Origin: Gammaproteobacteria bacterium
GTDB lineage: Bacteria > Pseudomonadota > Gammaproteobacteria > 21-64-14
Assembly: GCA_027013145.1 (NCBI GenBank)
Contig: JALUXX010000034.1
Location: 1 to 56,078 of the forward strand
Length of the DNA stretch: 56,078 nt
Direction of reading: 5' to 3'
Part shown: positions 14,981-47,971 of the stretch, in pieces
Layout of the letters: every line of letters begins with the position of its first letter
How positions within the stretch are numbered: position 1 is the first letter of the stretch
Notes under the pieces: model-generated
What the model was told of the DNA's origin: nothing
Databases searched by the model: none
The model's input: the letters and a program-made list of their open reading frames with translations, nothing else
Position numbers and translations under genes: made by a program

Positions 14981-15555
14981 GCGCGACGGCGTCGATCGGG
15001 CCGACGTCGTCGGGATGAGGCGTAGGGGGTGGGGTAGGGCCGGGCTTGCCCGGCCGGGGCCGCGGGAAGAGGCCACGGAATCCACGGAACGCACGGACCC
15101 CACGGAACGCACGGAATGAATGAAACCGGTCCGTGGGTTCGGTGGATTCCGTGGCGCCTTTTTCCGTCTCCGAGGGACGCGGCCACGGTCGGCGGAAATC
15201 GTGATCCCGGGCGTCGTCGGCGGGGGTAGGGCCGGGCTTGCCCGGCCGACGTCGCAGGAAGAGGCCACGGAACGCACGGAACCCACGGAAAGAATGAAAC
15301 CGGTCCGTGGATTCCGTGGCGCTTTTGTCTGTTTCGGAAGGTCCCCGCCGCGCTGGAGGGAAATTGCAATCCCCGGCGTCGTCGGCGGGCCAAGGCCCGC
15401 CCTACCGGTGCCCGGGTCGGCATGGGAGGGCACCGTAGGGTCGGGCTTGCCCGACCTACCGGCCGACGACGTGGGGCGGGGTGATACGGTTCGGGTCGAA
15501 CGTCGTCGGCGGGGCGAGCCCCGTCCTACCGGCCGACACCGTGTGACCGATCCGC
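14981..15555. repeat. Composite dispersed repeat, two copies
   Basis: No gene seen. TAGGGCCGGGCTTGCCCGGCC occurs near 15035 and 15228. Each is followed by an arm beginning AAGAGGCCACGGAA with runs of CACGGAA, then GAATGAAACCGGTCCGTGG, then TTCCGTGGCGC and a T-rich run, so each copy folds into a long stem with a terminator-like tail. Downstream lie CGTCGTCGGCGGGCCAAGG and further pieces of the 112-bp unit seen at 6.1-6.6 kb. The two copies are about 200 bp apart. Convergent genes flank the block, so it may also end transcripts from both sides. Confidence 0.8.
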
Positions 15556-40962: not shown

Positions 40963-41038
40963 GGGCCGTTAGCTCAGTCGGTAGAGCACCGGACTTTTAA
41001 TCCGTGTGTCGCAGGTTCGACCCCTGCACGGCCCACCA
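40963..41038 (+). tRNA. tRNA-Lys (TTT)
   Basis: 76 bases including an encoded CCA. Acceptor GGGCCGT pairs with ACGGCCC; the D arm is GCTC-AGTCGGTA-GAGC; the anticodon loop is CTTTTAA with anticodon TTT; the T arm is GCAGG-TTCGACC-CCTGC. The tRNA is intact. Its 3' 48 bases are the left half of the direct repeat that bounds the integrative element, so it is the attachment site. Confidence 0.97.
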
Positions 41039-41042
41039 TTAA
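40991..41042 (+). repeat. Attachment site, left copy
   Basis: The 52-bp repeat begins GGACTTTTAATCCGTGTG within the tRNA-Lys anticodon arm and ends CCACCATTAA. This copy belongs to the complete tRNA. Confidence 0.93.
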
Positions 41043-41096
41043 AAACAGTCAGTTACGGCAGGACGCCGGAAGGATAGGTGCGCCGGGAGGCTCATT

Positions 41097-41154: not shown

Positions 41155-41448
41155 CTATTCGCGCTCCGGCGGATCAACGAATCGAACGCGGATCTCGTAC
41201 GGCTCCGCGCCCTCGCCGACGCCGATATGGTGCTCGGCGGGGATGAGTCGCGCGTAGAGTTTCCAGAACTCGGTGGGGTTCCGCTTCGCCCAGTCAGTCA
41301 GCGCCGCCACGCCGCCGATGCCCTCGGCCGCCATCATGAAGGCCTCCCGCGCCGCGCGCGTCGTCTTGTTCACGGCCCCCTTGGGCCGGCCCTTACCGGC
41401 GCGGCCCCGAAGATTAGGCGGGACACGGGTTTTCGTGGGCGTGGACAT
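41155..41448 (-). CDS. Small KGRPKG-type phage/island protein
   Basis: 97 residues from ATG 41448. The N terminus contains NLRGRAGKGRPKGAVNKTT, a basic patch seen at the start of phage and island proteins of the DUF5681 / terminase-small-subunit-like kind; the rest is helical (TRAAREAFMMAAEGIGGV, DWAKRNPTEFWKLYARLIPA). DNA binding is plausible. No terminase large subunit is present, so a packaging role on this element is not supported. It is the gene closest to the tRNA end. Confidence 0.6.
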   Translation of the reverse strand: MSTPTKTRVPPNLRGRAGKGRPKGAVNKTTRAAREAFMMAAEGIGGVAALTDWAKRNPTEFWKLYARLIPAEHHIGVGEGAEPYEIRVRFVDPPERE

Positions 41449-41504: not shown

Positions 41505-41867
41505 CTACCGGCGATTCGAGTTCGCCAGCCTCGGATCGTCGGCGCTTATGCAGCGGCCTTCCTGTGCCGCTTCGTAGCGGGCTCGCCTGCTCTTCACCAA
41601 GTCGATCTGGCTCCGCGGGTCCTTCTCAGTCTGAGTTAGGACCTCACCATCCACCTCAATTAGGGACGTCATGGCGTTCTCGCAACTCAGCGCCGAATCA
41701 AAGGCAAAGACTTGTCTCCACGCCGATAGGGGCTTACCGTCCAGAACTCGGCCGTGAATGCCGACTGGCGGCACCAGCAGATACCAGCCGCCAGCAGCGA
41801 ACGCGGCCGGCGCGGCTGCCATCATCGCGAACAACAACCCAGCCCTAACCACGCTCGCCGTCTTCAT
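41505..41867 (-). CDS. Unknown exported island protein
   Basis: 120 residues from ATG 41867. A signal peptide (MKTASVVRAGLLFAMMAAAP ending AFA) is followed by GGWYLLVPPVGIHGRVLDG and a helical, charged C-terminal half with two cysteines (SCENAM, GRCISAD). No family recognised. It overlaps the upstream unknown gene by 23 bases. A secreted protein in an otherwise replication-related island is the best candidate for cargo. Confidence 0.55.
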   Translation of the reverse strand: MKTASVVRAGLLFAMMAAAPAAFAAGGWYLLVPPVGIHGRVLDGKPLSAWRQVFAFDSALSCENAMTSLIEVDGEVLTQTEKDPRSQIDLVKSRRARYEAAQEGRCISADDPRLANSNRR

Positions 41868-42387
41868 CGTTCACCCTCCCGAAATGCGCGCCCTGCGGGA
41901 CGACGCGCCGGCCGGGGATAACCGCCAGCCTCGCAGGTCCCCACAATAGTTTATCCACGACCGCCATGCTGTCGGGCACCTCGGCGGCCAAGTCAGGCCT
42001 CGACGCTAGCGCCAGGCGCAGGGCACCCCACGGATAGCCTCGGTTGCGGGCCAGCGTGGCCGTCATGGCGGCGGCCTCGGCCTCGGCCTGCTCGCGCGGC
42101 AGGTGGGCGTCGTATTCCAGGATGGCCGCCCGCTCGGCGAAGTGCTCGGCCAGGTCCTCGACGGCTTCGGCCAACTCCGGCGTCGGCGTGGCGTCGGCGT
42201 CCAGCTCCCGCGCCACCTCCCGCCCGGGCGGGGGCTCCGGTTTGTGAAAAATTGGGGCGTCGGTGGCGTACGCAGAATACGCACAATACGCAGAAATCGC
42301 CGGTTCCCCTATTTTTGCGTATTGTGCGAATTGTGCGTAACGATTTCGGGACTCAAAATTGCCGTTCAGAATCTCGCGCCAACTCAT
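41845..42387 (-). CDS. Unknown island protein carrying iterons in its 5' part
   Basis: 180 residues from ATG 42387, 3 bases after the DUF3987 gene stop. Residues ~16-42 read RYAQFAQYAKIGEPAISAYC and so on, a peptide pattern produced by 9-bp iterons in the DNA rather than by a protein domain. The remainder (~45-150) is acidic and helical (ELAEAVEDLAEHFAERAAIL), with LARNRGYPWGALRLALASRP. No function recognised. It is plausibly a replication or plasmid-maintenance partner of the adjacent primase-like protein. Confidence 0.6.
   Translation of the reverse strand: MSWREILNGNFESRNRYAQFAQYAKIGEPAISAYCAYSAYATDAPIFHKPEPPPGREVARELDADATPTPELAEAVEDLAEHFAERAAILEYDAHLPREQAEAEAAAMTATLARNRGYPWGALRLALASRPDLAAEVPDSMAVVDKLLWGPARLAVIPGRRVVPQGAHFGRVNDEDGERG
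42269..42339. repeat. Two opposed triplets of 9-bp iterons
   Basis: Forward units TACGCAGAA, TACGCACAA and TACGCAGAA are contiguous at 42269-42295. After 17 bp (42296-42312), three contiguous units in inverted orientation follow at 42313-42339, reading on the minus strand TACGCACAA, TTCGCACAA and TACGCAAAA. The consensus is TWCGCASAA. A third triplet is at 43895-43921. Contiguous short iterons in opposed blocks resemble binding arrays of plasmid or satellite-phage replication initiators. Confidence 0.88.
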
Positions 42388-42390
42388 CGC

Positions 42391-44568
42391 TCAGCCCCCC
42401 ACCAGCTCCGGGCGCACCACCACCACCGGCGACGGCGGCCGCCCCCGGCTATCCCGCGGCGGCTCCTGGACGGTAATGTAGCCCCGTTCCACCAGGACGC
42501 CCAGGGCCTCGCGCAACGCTGACATACGCGGGAAGCTCCCGCGCAGGGCGTTGAAGGCTTCGCGCTCCGTAAACCGCTCCAGGCGCCCGCCCTGAATCCA
42601 CCCCCAAATAGTCCGGGCGGCGGCGACTGTTTCATCGGCCCCCATCAGCTCCAACGCGACGAGTGTGTGCCGACTCACGACGGCCAGAATGTCGAGCGCG
42701 GCCCCCATCGTCTCGGGCGTAATCTCCGTATCCCAGGGCTGCCCGTGCGCGTGCTCGATGCCGTGCAGCACTGCGGCCAGTCGCGCCGCGGCCCCTGGCG
42801 CCTTTCCCGCCCAATCCATGCAGTGCGCAAAGTCACCACCGGGACGCATCCGCACTTCTACAGCCCGAGAGAACTCTTCCCATACCTGGAGAGCCCCCGC
42901 GCTCAACCGCAGCAGGTGTGTCCGTTCGCGTCCGTTATCGTCCGCGGCAGGTTTCCAGTTCAGCATGGCGCCCAGCCCGGCCGCGTAGGCGCTGCGCACG
43001 CCTTCGGGGATGGCGGCCCCGCGCAGCGTTCGGAAACCCAGGTTCGACGGCGGGAGCAAGTAAAGAAACCGGGCCAGTAGCCCACGCCCCCGGAACCCCG
43101 GCTTAGCCGTCAGCCCGCGCAACACGTCCGGTTGCGGGCTTAACCCAACTGTGAGCCGGGGACATTGAACGAATACCGGCGGCCGGCTGCCCCTGTCCAC
43201 GCGCTCGGCATCGCCCGCGTGCGCCTTGAGAACCAAGTCGAGATTTGGGACACCATTAGAGTAGCGGCCGGCCAACAAGTCGAAGACACCGCCTTCGGAC
43301 GATAGCCAGCCCATACACTCATGATGTTCGGCGAGCAGCACCCCCAGTTTTTCGGGTGTCGCGTCCGACGTCCAGAGCCGGGGGGGTATCGGTATCTCGG
43401 GAAGTTCCGCTTCCATCTCGGCGGCACGGCGTGCGCACTCTTCGGGATTGGCGGGATTCGGCCCCTTCTTCCGCGGTGCGGCGGCCATTCTCCGAAACAC
43501 CTTGATTTGCTCTTCCATTGTCTTACGGGCGCTCGTTATGCGCTTGATTTCCGGCGCCAGAGCCGCGGCCTGCTCGCTCTCCCAGGTGAGCAGCGGCCCC
43601 GTCGCGCACTTCTGCACGGCGCTTTTCCGGCTACCCGACGGCAGCGCCACAAGCCACCACAGGTTGCACGGCTCAAAATAGTCAGGCCGCACCAGCACGC
43701 GCAGGCGGCGCGCGGCCGCGACTGAACAGGCAGCCAGCACCATTGCGGCGGATAGCTCTAAAGGCGTTTCGGTGTGTTCCGCTAGCGCGCGGGCGAAGTC
43801 TCCAGCCCAGCCCGGAAGCATTTCCGGCACAATGCGCGGCAACGTTGGTGCATCCAGCGGCACCAGCTCCGGCCATTCCTGGGCGCTCGATTCTTCCGCA
43901 GAATTCGCACAATTCGCAGAAATAGTGTTTCGCGGGAGCGTCATCACGTCCGCAGCGGTGGCGCTGGGGTGCGCCGTCAGCCAATCGACACAATCTCCGC
44001 CCTTCGGCAGCCCCAGTGCTTCCACGTCCACTATCTCGATACTGCACCCCAGGCCTTGCAGAACGCGCGCCACATCCTGCGCATACTTCGCGCCCGGCTC
44101 GTCGGCGTCGGGCCAGATGACAACATGGCGGCCCCGCAGCGGCGCCCAGTCCGCGCCAGCGGCGGAATTCGCCCCGCCGCTCGTGGTGGCGGCAATCTTG
44201 AGCCGTACCAGCTCCACAACGCACAGTTCGCCTTCCACGACGAACACCGGCGCGTCAGGCGGTGCGGCAACGATTCCGGGCAAGTTGAAAAGAGGCTTGC
44301 CCCCGGCCGGGAACGTCGGTTCACCGATCTCGAATCCGCCGCCGGCGGTGCGCCGCATGGGGCGAATCCACTTCCGGCCGTCAGGGTGCTTTGCACGAAT
44401 CCGCCAGAAGAAAGTGGAGCCGTCCGCGTCTCTGTAAGTAAACAGGCACTCCAGCCGGAACCCGTCGCGTAGGGCTCCAGCCTTTTCGGCCAGGCGCTGG
44501 GCGGCCTGCTGCGGGCTTTCGGCGTCGCGCGGCGTCTCGCGCCCTACTACACCGGCCGGGGCGCTCAT
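42391..44568 (-). CDS. Toprim-like / DUF3987 helicase-like replication protein
   Basis: 725 residues from ATG 44568, which overlaps the stop of the zinc-finger gene (TGATG). N-terminal part: VFVVEGELCVVELVRL and HVVIWPDADEPGAKYAQD are Toprim-type acidic motifs (EGE, DxDEPG), followed by GGDCVDWLTAHP. The middle and C-terminal parts match the DUF3987 type (MVLAACSVAAARRLRVLVRP, WWLVALPSGSRKSAVQ as Walker A-like, LSSEGGVFDLLAG, GRGLLARFLYLLP). This is the common replication protein of small islands. With the separate CHC2 finger upstream it would rebuild a primase-helicase. A 9-bp iteron triplet lies within its coding sequence. Confidence 0.8.
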   Translation of the reverse strand: MSAPAGVVGRETPRDAESPQQAAQRLAEKAGALRDGFRLECLFTYRDADGSTFFWRIRAKHPDGRKWIRPMRRTAGGGFEIGEPTFPAGGKPLFNLPGIVAAPPDAPVFVVEGELCVVELVRLKIAATTSGGANSAAGADWAPLRGRHVVIWPDADEPGAKYAQDVARVLQGLGCSIEIVDVEALGLPKGGDCVDWLTAHPSATAADVMTLPRNTISANCANSAEESSAQEWPELVPLDAPTLPRIVPEMLPGWAGDFARALAEHTETPLELSAAMVLAACSVAAARRLRVLVRPDYFEPCNLWWLVALPSGSRKSAVQKCATGPLLTWESEQAAALAPEIKRITSARKTMEEQIKVFRRMAAAPRKKGPNPANPEECARRAAEMEAELPEIPIPPRLWTSDATPEKLGVLLAEHHECMGWLSSEGGVFDLLAGRYSNGVPNLDLVLKAHAGDAERVDRGSRPPVFVQCPRLTVGLSPQPDVLRGLTAKPGFRGRGLLARFLYLLPPSNLGFRTLRGAAIPEGVRSAYAAGLGAMLNWKPAADDNGRERTHLLRLSAGALQVWEEFSRAVEVRMRPGGDFAHCMDWAGKAPGAAARLAAVLHGIEHAHGQPWDTEITPETMGAALDILAVVSRHTLVALELMGADETVAAARTIWGWIQGGRLERFTEREAFNALRGSFPRMSALREALGVLVERGYITVQEPPRDSRGRPPSPVVVVRPELVGG
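43895..43921 (+). repeat. Third 9-bp iteron triplet
   Basis: TCCGCAGAA, TTCGCACAA and TTCGCAGAA are contiguous. The order of variable cores (G, C, G at the seventh base) is the same as in the triplet at 42269-42295, although the two lie in different genes and reading contexts. On the minus strand they encode the peptide SANCANSAE in the DUF3987 protein. Confidence 0.85.
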
Positions 44569-44930
44569 CACAATGTCCCCCAGGCGCCGAGCAGCCGCGC
44601 GGCGTCCACAAAGCCAACGTCGTGCACCTTCTCGGTGAACGCGACAACATCGCGGCCCTTGGCGCCGCAGCCGAAACAACGGAAGGCCCCGGTTTCGACA
44701 TTCACCCGCAGCGAAGGCGTCTTGTCTGCGTGAAAGCAGCACGAGGCACTACGCCACGGGCCACGCCCTGGAAGCAGCTTCAGCCTCTCGGCATAAAACT
44801 GCTCGGGGGCCGGGAGCAGATCGCGCCTCAACCCCTCGCGTCGGCGTGGGCCGCCGTATAGGCGACTGAGTGCGGCCATCGTTGCGCCGCCGTGCGCCTT
44901 GTGGCGTCTCCAGTCGCGCCGCGCGGTCAT
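44568..44930 (-). CDS. CHC2 zinc-finger primase-like protein
   Basis: 120 residues from ATG 44930, overlapping the AlpA stop as ATGA. The C-terminal half has a DnaG-type CHC2 finger: ASCCFHADKTPSLRVNVETG then FRCFGCGAKGRDVVAF, giving C, H and CxxC ligands. The N-terminal part (MTARRDWRRHKAHGGATM) is basic. The catalytic Toprim region is encoded by the next gene in an overlapping frame, so the primase is split into two polypeptides. Confidence 0.78.
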   Translation of the reverse strand: MTARRDWRRHKAHGGATMAALSRLYGGPRRREGLRRDLLPAPEQFYAERLKLLPGRGPWRSASCCFHADKTPSLRVNVETGAFRCFGCGAKGRDVVAFTEKVHDVGFVDAARLLGAWGTL

Positions 44931-45136
44931 CGGCCCCTCTCCACATCCTGCGCCCGGACGCGTTCCGCGATCCAGCGCTCCACGGTGCTTTCCGGCCACG
45001 CAATCGCTCGCGGACCGATCTTTACGGGGGAGGGGAAACGCCCGGCCCGCATGTCGGAATAAATCGAAGACCTACGGCGCCCCGTCCGGCGCACGACTTC
45101 CGGGAGGCGAAGTAAAATTTCTGGGGTAGCAGACAT
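44927..45136 (-). CDS. AlpA-family excisionase/regulator
   Basis: 69 residues from ATG 45136. LLRLPEVVRRTGRRRSSIYSDM and AGRFPSPVKIGPRAIAWPES, then VERWIAERV, are the AlpA/MerR-like winged-helix pattern. AlpA proteins activate or steer integrase and excision in P4-like elements. An imperfect palindrome just upstream (45140-45175) may be its operator. The first gene of the replication operon. Confidence 0.85.
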   Translation of the reverse strand: MSATPEILLRLPEVVRRTGRRRSSIYSDMRAGRFPSPVKIGPRAIAWPESTVERWIAERVRAQDVERGR

Positions 45137-45869: not shown

Positions 45870-46058
45870 TCAGGTATCCCCCTTCCGGCGCGCGCCCCTC
45901 GCGCCGAGCAGCGCGGCGAATGCGGACTCGCTAAGCCCCATCTGTTCGCGGATCGCCTTCACGTCTTTCGGCGCCTCCACGCTGCGGCGCTTGCCTTTCC
46001 CGCCTCTGATCTCGCGCAGCCCCGACAGGATTTCCCGCCCAATGTCTCGCTTCTTCAT
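45870..46058 (-). CDS. Truncated HTH (XRE/HigA-like) protein
   Basis: 62 residues from ATG 46058, overlapping the integrase stop (TTATGAAG). MKKRDIGREILSGLREIRGG followed by KAIREQMGLSESAFAALLGA matches the start of antitoxin-type XRE regulators. It stops after GARGARRKGDT, where the rest of the recognition helix and the following helices should be. I found no continuation in another frame. It is probably a remnant or an unusually short variant of the element's repressor. Confidence 0.6.
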   Translation of the reverse strand: MKKRDIGREILSGLREIRGGKGKRRSVEAPKDVKAIREQMGLSESAFAALLGARGARRKGDT

Positions 46059-47398
46059 AACGACTCAACCTCCCGGTTCAGTCGGCCGGCGAATGGCACC
46101 ACGTCCCCGCCAGCGCGCAAGCCCTCCAGATACGCGCCCCACCGGGCCAGGGCCTCGCGCTTCTCGCGCATGTAGTCGTGGCGGTCGTAATGACGGTCCT
46201 GCACGCCGCCGAGTCCGTGACTGAGCAGTTGCGCGCGCACGTCCTTGCTCACGCCCAGCGCCGCGAGTTCGGTTTCACAGGTGCGCCGCACGTCGCGCAG
46301 TTGGTAGGCGCCTTCCCCGATGCGGCGCACCAGGACGCTGAGGGTGGTCAGGCTCGGCGGGCGCTTGCCGTCGCTGCTGAACAGGCTCGGTGCGCCGGCG
46401 TTGGCGGCCAGGGGTTCGCGGATCAGGTCGGCCACGGGGTCGAGCGGCAGGACGTGCGCCCGCGGGCGCGTCCGGCGCCCCTTGCCGTCGTGCAGGGTGA
46501 TCGTGCCGCGGTCGGGGTCCACGTCCGCCGCCGTGATTCGCAGGACTTGCGCGGGACGCTGGCCGCCCAGGTAAATCGCCGTCAGGAGCGCCCGGGCGGG
46601 CATGGTATCGCTCGCGTGCAGGGCGCGCAGGAGTTCCCGCAGTTCGGCGCGGGACAGCACGCGGTCCCCGGGGATGGAAAGTTCGCTGTAGGTCGGCAAC
46701 GCGGCCACGGGGTTCGCGGTGACGACGAATCCCCGGAACACCGCCGGGATCGTGGACTTGAACGGCGCGCGCGCGGCCAGGGTATAGGCCGCGTGCAGGT
46801 GGGCGCGTACCTTCCCGAGCGCGCGCGTGCGGCCCAGCTCGACCAGACGGTCGAAAACGATCCGCAGGTCGGCGGCGGTGATCTCGTTCGCACGCCGCTC
46901 GGCCAGGTCGGGGAAGGGGTCGAGAACGTGGAGGGTGACCGCACTTTGCACGTCCTGCCACGACACGCGCCCCTGCTCGCGCAGGTGTTCGACATAGGCC
47001 AGCAGCAGCGCCCGCAGGGAGCCGGCCTGCTGTTTCTCCCGCGCTTCGGCCTCCCGGCGTCGGGCCTCCGCTTCCCGTCGGGCCTCGGCCTCCAGGTGCG
47101 CCCGCACGTCGCGCACGCCGCCCCGGTACAGCAGGCGCAACGCGTCCACGCGGTCCCGGGCGTCCTTCAGGCTCAGGCCGCCGCGTCCGTCCGGCGCGTA
47201 GGTCCCCAGCGGCAGGTCGTCGCGGCGCCCGCGTGGGTCGGTGTAGCGGTAGAAAAGCGCCACGTTGCCGCTCGGGTGAACGCGGACCCGCAGGACGCCG
47301 GCGCCGCGTCCCCGGTCGTCACTGGCGGTGACTGCGCGCCCTTCCTGCTGGGCGCGTTTGCGGAGGGTCTCGATGCTGCGGGCGGTCAGGGTGGGCAT
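46055..47398 (-). CDS. int: Tyrosine recombinase/integrase of the tRNA-Lys element
   Basis: 447 residues from ATG 47398 (MPTLTARSIETLRKRAQQEG); an upstream GTG/ATG would add 11 residues. An N-terminal arm-binding domain (FYRYTDPRGRRDDLPLGTYA) is followed by a charged helical linker (~105-130), the core-binding domain (LLLAYVEHLREQGRVSWQDV) and the catalytic domain with Arg in LGGQRPAQVLRI, RDVRRTCET, LLSHGLGG and the nucleophile region HYDRHDYMREK. The first catalytic HxxR histidine is replaced by Gln (YQLRDVRRT), as in a known integrase subgroup. It should recombine the 52-bp repeats. Confidence 0.92.
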   Translation of the reverse strand: MPTLTARSIETLRKRAQQEGRAVTASDDRGRGAGVLRVRVHPSGNVALFYRYTDPRGRRDDLPLGTYAPDGRGGLSLKDARDRVDALRLLYRGGVRDVRAHLEAEARREAEARRREAEAREKQQAGSLRALLLAYVEHLREQGRVSWQDVQSAVTLHVLDPFPDLAERRANEITAADLRIVFDRLVELGRTRALGKVRAHLHAAYTLAARAPFKSTIPAVFRGFVVTANPVAALPTYSELSIPGDRVLSRAELRELLRALHASDTMPARALLTAIYLGGQRPAQVLRITAADVDPDRGTITLHDGKGRRTRPRAHVLPLDPVADLIREPLAANAGAPSLFSSDGKRPPSLTTLSVLVRRIGEGAYQLRDVRRTCETELAALGVSKDVRAQLLSHGLGGVQDRHYDRHDYMREKREALARWGAYLEGLRAGGDVVPFAGRLNREVESL

Positions 47399-47402
47399 GG
47401 TC

Positions 47403-47458
47403 GCGTCCCCGTAATCCGTGTGTGTCCCCAAACTCGTCCCCGTTCTGTCCCCGTTTGT
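47403..47458. other. Candidate integrase arm-type sites, right end
   Basis: Four direct repeats of GTCCCC at about 47405, 47424, 47436 and 47447 lie between the int start and the right attachment site. The last sits in TGTCCCCGTTTGT, identical to the site at the left end. They also overlap the int promoter region, so integrase may repress itself. Confidence 0.6.
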
Positions 47459-47571: not shown

Positions 47572-47623
47572 GGACTTTTAATCCGTGTGTCGCAGGTTCG
47601 ACCCCTGCACGGCCCACCATTAA
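47572..47623 (+). repeat. Attachment site, right copy
   Basis: The 52-bp copy of the tRNA-Lys 3' part and flank, identical to 40991-41042. The upstream half of the tRNA is absent, so it is not a second tRNA gene. Confidence 0.93.
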
Positions 47624-47971
47624 GAAACACAGGTTGACCGTTCCCCTATCCTGGATCCTTCAGCCTTGCGCGAGCGGCGGGCAGGCGAAGGGAGAGGTAC
47701 GTCCTGATTCCGCAAAGGTTGCAATCGGAAGCCGCGGAACGGGCCACAACGATCGAGCCCGAAACGCTGCGCGCTTGTTTGCCGACGCGAGACCGACCCC
47801 CCCGTTCTGACCGGGACGTAAGGGGAGTGGTCCCGGGAACGGGGTCCCCGAAACAACCGCGGCGCGGTGCAGGAGCCAACCCGTATCGGAATGCTTGCGA
47901 AACACCCTTCGTAGCAAGGCTCGTCTGCGTTATCCTTGTAATTATGGAGCTTTTCCCCATAATTGCAAGGA
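47624..47971. other. Gene-free gap with a palindrome before the ATPase gene
   Basis: No convincing gene. The only structure I see is an inverted repeat CCTTGTAATTATGG (47934-47947) / CCATAATTGCAAGG (47957-47970), 13 of 14 positions complementary, ending 2 bases before the ATPase start codon. Its AT-rich arms stand out from the GC-rich surroundings. It could be an operator or a hairpin masking translation. Confidence 0.6.

Follow-up and report, generated by a model that had tools for sequence, protein, structure and literature searches.

The Rep protein of SaPIs and the Cch2 protein of SCCmec bind, with their C-terminal domains, iterons located directly downstream of their own genes; the repeats recognised by Cch2 are AAGTG motifs just after the cch2 gene (PMC7581432). 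A published prediction treats DUF3987 as a family of helicases that belong to mobile elements (PMC5862659). The PICMI satellites of Vibrionaceae, which are about 6 kb long and integrated downstream of fis, are defined by an integrase, AlpA and a DUF3987/DUF5906 primase (PMC10803314). The word "iteron" does not appear in the PICMI paper (PMC10803314). Here we analyse two facing arrays of 9-bp repeats located next to a DUF3987 helicase gene, in an island carried by a gammaproteobacterial stretch of DNA of 56,078 nucleotides (contig JALUXX010000034.1, assembly GCA_027013145.1; the whole stretch is called the window). Based on sequence comparison, a predicted protein structure and analogy with the described systems, we suggest that these arrays are probably an iteron replication origin, which is read by the winged helix of the DUF3987 protein itself.

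One close parallel is the SaPI Rep/ori system, in which a helicase is likewise encoded by the island and short iterons lie directly downstream of its gene (PMC7581432). The locus described here differs from it in the Pfam family of the helicase (DUF3987), in its contiguous, facing 9-mers, which possibly overlap the next gene, in the AT-rich centre, which was not found here, and in a repeat sequence that is hypervariable across elements. SCCmec Cch2 differs in being a D5-family helicase with 5-nt repeats in an intergenic 23-bp block and no facing 9-bp arrays. The lambda O/ori-lambda system also has iterons within coding sequence, so that origin and protein code overlap; however, these iterons occupy the central part of the gene that encodes the initiator itself, bordered by an AT-rich region (PMC7466680). 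In the window, the main array is located in the next gene, and a third triplet of repeats lies inside the helicase gene. The lambda iterons are also longer, and O is not a helicase.

In gene content the island resembles the PICMI satellites as they are described, since it contains an integrase, AlpA and DUF3987, yet it is inserted in tRNA-Lys and not next to fis. A comparison with P4-like replicons, made in an earlier reading based on the sequence only (hereafter the sequence-only reading), did not hold, as the helicase belongs to DUF3987 and not to the P4 alpha-type primase-helicases. Because of this helicase family and the tRNA-Lys location, the island is not assigned to the SaPI, P4 or PICMI elements.

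Facing arrays of 9-mers in the window

Each array is a contiguous triplet, and the two triplets face each other with 17 bp between them (Table 1), an arrangement that the sequence-only reading had described correctly. It had also counted six copies of TWCGCASAA; five of them are exact (all plus-strand copies being of the TACGCA[GC]AA type), while the sixth, TACGCAAAA, is one base off. The array was rightly placed in the 5' coding part of a gene adjacent to a gene called primase-like, although the latter is better described as encoding a Toprim and DUF3987 helicase, with a CHC2 primase in a separate open reading frame (ORF) upstream. Exact matches to TWCGCASAA are strongly enriched in the window (7, compared with a mean of 0.69 after shuffling; none of 100 shuffles reached 7). 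In the host genome of 3.28 Mb, the tandem pair TWCGCASAATWCGCASAA occurs four times, always within the tRNA-Lys island, and the reversed-pattern control gave no match. As the tandem motif is thus confined to the island, a repeat dispersed throughout the host genome was rejected as an explanation.

A third triplet, overlooked by the sequence-only reading, is present on the plus strand inside the helicase ORF, where it might serve copy control or have an accessory function. It falls in the linker that joins the Toprim part to the DUF3987 part. In the two nearest relatives, L009 and L005, DUF3987 forms an ORF of its own, and the linker of the fusion in the window is seemingly made of iterons. At another locus, L185, that locus's own 9-mer also occurs at the Toprim-DUF3987 junction, in a place matching the third triplet.

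Table 1. Positions of the arrays and of the island features in the window.
Feature	Position	Strand	Details
Arm 1 (gene orientation)	42313-42339	-	TACGCACAA (42331-42339), TTCGCACAA (42322-42330), TACGCAAAA (42313-42321); peptide YAQFAQYAK
Arm 2	42269-42295	+	TACGCAGAA (42269-42277), TACGCACAA (42278-42286), TACGCAGAA (42287-42295); minus-strand reading AYCAYSAYA
Gap between the arms	42296-42312	.	17 bp; 41% A+T, compared with 34% in the surrounding 12 kb
Third triplet	43895-43921	+	TCCGCAGAA TTCGCACAA TTCGCAGAA; Toprim/DUF3987 linker of the helicase ORF; minus-strand peptide NCANSA
Toprim and DUF3987 (MCM-like AAA+, predicted) helicase ORF with C-terminal winged helix	42391-44742	-	PF13148, E=2.7e-96
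Winged-helix domain (proposed 9-mer reader)	42394-42663	-	C-terminal 90 residues; predicted structure, covariation
Downstream ORF (MSWREILNG...)	41845-42387	-	array in its 5' codons; starts just after the DUF3987 stop
CHC2 zinc-ribbon (DnaG-type) primase ORF	44568-44999	-	PF01807, E=1.8e-14
AlpA-type regulator/excisionase	44927-45136	-	PF05930, E=6.9e-16
Island tyrosine integrase	46055-47431	-	PF00589, PF13356; phrog_1
Small ORF at the far end of the island	41155-41448	-	phrog_11043, E 6e-9; phage families of unknown function
att direct repeat, 3' end of tRNA-Lys (40963-41038)	40991-41045	+	
Second att repeat	47572-47626	+	98% identical to the first

The two arms are inverted partners, and over 29 nt they are 90% complementary. 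This might suggest pairing as an RNA or cruciform hairpin, which would regulate how the downstream gene is translated or serve as a structural signal. We consider such a role highly improbable. Would-be hairpin partners are no more complementary than non-partner copies (cross-arm mismatches 0.154 and 0.159, respectively), and for this reason the arms appear to be separate binding sites rather than the two sides of a hairpin. Moreover, among other loci the arms may differ in copy number (2 and 7 in L050), additional one-sided arrays occur and the 9-bp period is strict.

Arrays at other DUF3987 loci

DUF3987 loci were gathered from a sample of genomes and from viral contigs, and 108 distinct genes had enough downstream sequence. 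In a strict test, which allowed at most 1 mismatch per 9-mer and demanded two or more tandem copies on each strand and facing arrays no more than 150 bp apart, the region from -120 to +480 relative to the DUF3987 stop was compared with other 600-bp windows of the same loci and of the window. Arrays were detected around or just after the stop of 38 of the 108 genes and in 1 of 775 controls (p=1e-36). The single control hit is likely the dispersed CCACGGAAC element of the window. A relaxed test was positive for 59 of the 108 genes, for none of 432 shuffles and for 1 of 108 regions inside the same genes; as it is too permissive on GC-rich sequence, with many matches in the window, the strict test with its real-sequence controls provides our headline figures. 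A search of related islands for repeats at the equivalent position, proposed in the sequence-only reading, thus found 9-bp arrays there. When different spacings were scanned, 9 bp gave 30 positives in 95, 10 to 14 bp none and 15 bp 2, which shows that a spacing of exactly 9 bp is required.

Among the DUF3987 relatives identified first, the two nearest, L009 (63%) and L005 (60%), also carry facing 9-bp arrays in the equivalent place, with different letters (CCCACAATT and CCCAAAACC, respectively). Three close relatives (L091, L092 and L093) carry a 9-mer of the window's type, [TC]CGCA.AA, and the 9-mers of other loci include CTGACAAAA, CCGACAAAA, CTGCTATTC, CTGCGACAC, AACTGCGCC and TGTCGCCAT. 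Scans of viral contigs with window-type queries returned one locus only.

Several features of individual groups were also recorded. In the clade with CTGACAAAA-type repeats (L006, L057, L072, L142, L152 and L185) the arms are only 4-7 bp apart, and a G or C run mostly fills the gap. The members of another clade (L078, L080, L082, L084 and L085), whose arrays follow the helicase stop, share a similar A/T-tract spacer between the arms, approximately GTGAAAAATNGGTTTTTGGNAAAAA, and midway through the second arm one step measures 10 bp. The dispersed CCACGGAAC element (15073-15317 in the window) itself consists of facing contiguous 9-bp arrays, in two units about 190 bp apart; the pattern of these arrays matched 50 times in the host genome and never in the reversed control, and in the window they are not linked to DUF3987.

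Within the island, one 9-mer encodes the three different peptides listed in Table 1. Elsewhere, arrays extend over the helicase stop codon or lie where no sense frame is open throughout (7 of 48 loci). Non-coding arrays following DUF3987 were found on two Psychrobacter plasmids (TGCTTAAAC) and one Streptomyces plasmid (CTGACAGAA). Because the arrays are variously coding, stop-straddling or non-coding, the conserved entity is the nucleotide array and not the peptide. This agrees with the earlier claim that protein constraint does not explain the repeats; conservation at the amino-acid level only, named at that time as a possible refutation, was not seen.

It is therefore extremely improbable that the arrays are a protein-level or low-complexity repeat devoid of DNA function. 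Nine bp do correspond to three codons, and GC-rich sequence elsewhere in the window yields relaxed-test matches. However, the same 9-mer gives different peptides on opposite strands, non-coding cases exist, arrays with a conserved peptide and drifting codons were not seen, the strict test was almost always negative in controls and the motif does not occur in the genome outside the island.

Predicted helicase structure and iteron covariation

The last 500 residues of the window's DUF3987 protein were modelled with a pLDDT of 93.7. The AAA+ domain of the model is closest to MCM helicases (6mii_B: Z 18.4, root-mean-square deviation (rmsd) 3.7, 272 residues aligned), and the C-terminal winged helix alone best matches that of MCM4, among others (8b9d_4: Z 10.0, rmsd 2.2, 73 residues). 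The prediction for the DUF3987 protein is therefore an MCM-like AAA+ helicase ending in a winged helix. No solved structure matched a profile built from the DUF3987 alignment, and the SaPI5 primase-helicase 7ola appeared as a weak Foldseek match to the window helicase (E 0.26).

Mantel-type distance tests were performed for 54 loci along segments of the DUF3987 protein; such tests do not fully remove shared ancestry. Iteron distance correlated with winged-helix distance (r=0.566), and the correlation persisted when the helicase part was taken into account (partial 0.376, permutation p=0.0003; jackknife range 0.358-0.407). The winged helix ranked first among 107 protein segments of equal length, the best segment outside it reaching 0.262. 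Covariation of the repeat with the primase clade had been suggested as a check on the sequence-only reading, and it is indeed the DUF3987 protein, most strongly its winged helix, with which the 9-mer covaries. The clearest case of this pairing is a natural swap. Loci L082 and L085 have nearly identical helicase parts (distance 0.04) and similar flanking DNA, but distant winged helices (0.39) and different iterons (AACTGCGCC and TGTCGCCAT). In both winged helix and iterons L085 matches L078, and L082 matches L080 and L084.

The helicase ORF is a constant neighbour of the arrays as a consequence of choosing loci by DUF3987. The downstream ORF next to the arrays is not constant across loci; among the window, L005 and L009 only its N-terminal residues (M[SG]WR..L) and the array are alike, and the C-terminal parts differ.

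Covariation points to the likely binder and not to the purpose of the binding. The arrays might instead be operators or copy-control sites, bound by the DUF3987 winged helix or by a regulator such as AlpA, which would repress the operon or limit replication from an origin located elsewhere. A further array of the same 9-mer inside the helicase gene is in line with this, as are extra arrays at some other loci. That these constitute a general feature is only suggestive, as pairs of a locus's own 9-mer occur elsewhere in 9 of 58 loci, compared with 70 of 962 for foreign matrices. On the other hand, the main arrays follow the helicase gene and lie within the next gene or ahead of it, not at a known promoter, and multi-copy repeats right after the helicase gene are the published layout of the SaPI and Cch2 origins. 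We regard an operator role as unlikely.

The arrays could also be another kind of DNA site, serving partition, packaging or transfer, that happens to adjoin the helicase gene. The integrase, AlpA and DUF3987 of the island do resemble genes of phage satellites (PMC10803314), which would need a packaging site. However, Pfam and PHROGs scans of nine island ORFs identified no gene for partition, a relaxase or a terminase, and the 9-mers covary with the winged helix of the helicase itself, which makes this explanation very unlikely.

The island and its possible mode of replication

The island of about 6.6 kb is integrated at tRNA-Lys and flanked by a 55-nt direct repeat. Its recognised genes (integrase, AlpA, CHC2 and Toprim-DUF3987) are all on the minus strand, and the array-bearing ORF follows directly after them. 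PF13148 is the sole Pfam match of the helicase ORF (323.3 bits, cut-off 27), the CHC2 zinc ribbon being placed in the separate ORF. The helicase ORF likely starts at an ATG near 44568, overlapping the stop of the CHC2 ORF.

Two sequence-level features of an iteron origin are present at this locus, namely repeats beside an initiator gene and a repeat sequence that tracks a DNA-binding domain. The sequence-only reading proposed an origin or copy-control locus overlaid on a gene. An iteron locus of this kind is supported, and we infer its role as an origin, rather than as another binding site of the same DUF3987 protein, along with physical binding by that protein and helicase loading.

We hypothesize that the integrase and AlpA would first excise the island, and that replication would follow. 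The DUF3987 helicase, encoded directly upstream, would bind the 9-mers via its C-terminal winged helix, and the two inward-facing rows might seat two helicase assemblies in opposite orientation. These would open the DNA, and replication would start with the CHC2/Toprim primase parts. The downstream gene begins right after the helicase stop, and the putative origin would therefore overlap its 5' codons. An element's 9-mer and winged helix would have evolved together, and such coevolution implies that elements carry different, probably non-interchangeable initiator-origin pairs.

Several observations weigh against an origin of this type. Unlike the lambda origin, the window has no marked AT-rich element in the gap between its arms; in most relatives the gap is not AT-rich either, and it is often a G/C run of 4-8 bp. 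About 45% of the DUF3987 genes had no array in the relaxed test, and no convincing array accompanies yfjI of E. coli K-12. An array of the locus's own 9-mer at the Toprim-DUF3987 junction was found at only 3 of the 32 loci that could be tested, counting the window. The helicase part also tracks the iterons (partial 0.261), and therefore shared ancestry contributes to the covariation. Finally, repM is also present on both array-bearing Psychrobacter plasmids, so DUF3987 is not the sole possible initiator there.

These two plasmids, pA52P5 and pA37P2 (L207 and L208), are 10-13 kb long and encode repM, an integrase and DUF3987; their TGCTTAAAC arrays form two sets that face each other, and the whole gives the impression of two joined replicons. 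On a 19-kb P. putida plasmid the array test found no facing array, and a Bartonella plasmid, which has a repC gene, carries arrays that are mostly one-sided. Given these cases and the Psychrobacter repM, small plasmids were rejected as proof of a replicon.

No account of such arrays with DUF3987 or YfjI was found in the open-access literature, although a description in a subscription journal is possible. Judging by that literature, this kind of origin has not been found described for the DUF3987 helicase family. We tentatively propose that the window's locus may belong to a large class of origins, comprising many, probably orthogonal, pairs of a 9-bp array and a DUF3987 winged helix, which would be swapped as modules among helicases nearly identical in other respects and would often overlie protein code.

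DUF3987 (YfjI) genes occur in many small islands, satellites and plasmids, and the start of their replication is not described in the open-access papers found. If the 9-bp arrays are indeed their origins, the origin could be located at once in a sequenced element, and elements competing for the same initiator could be predicted. The hypervariable 9-mers would then define incompatibility groups among satellites and islands. The recognition code of the winged helix would become readable from sequence, and the natural series of pairs, including the swap between L082 and L085, could be used for this purpose. The locus would also constitute a clear case of an origin overlying coding sequence, which is kept as DNA while the encoded peptide varies.
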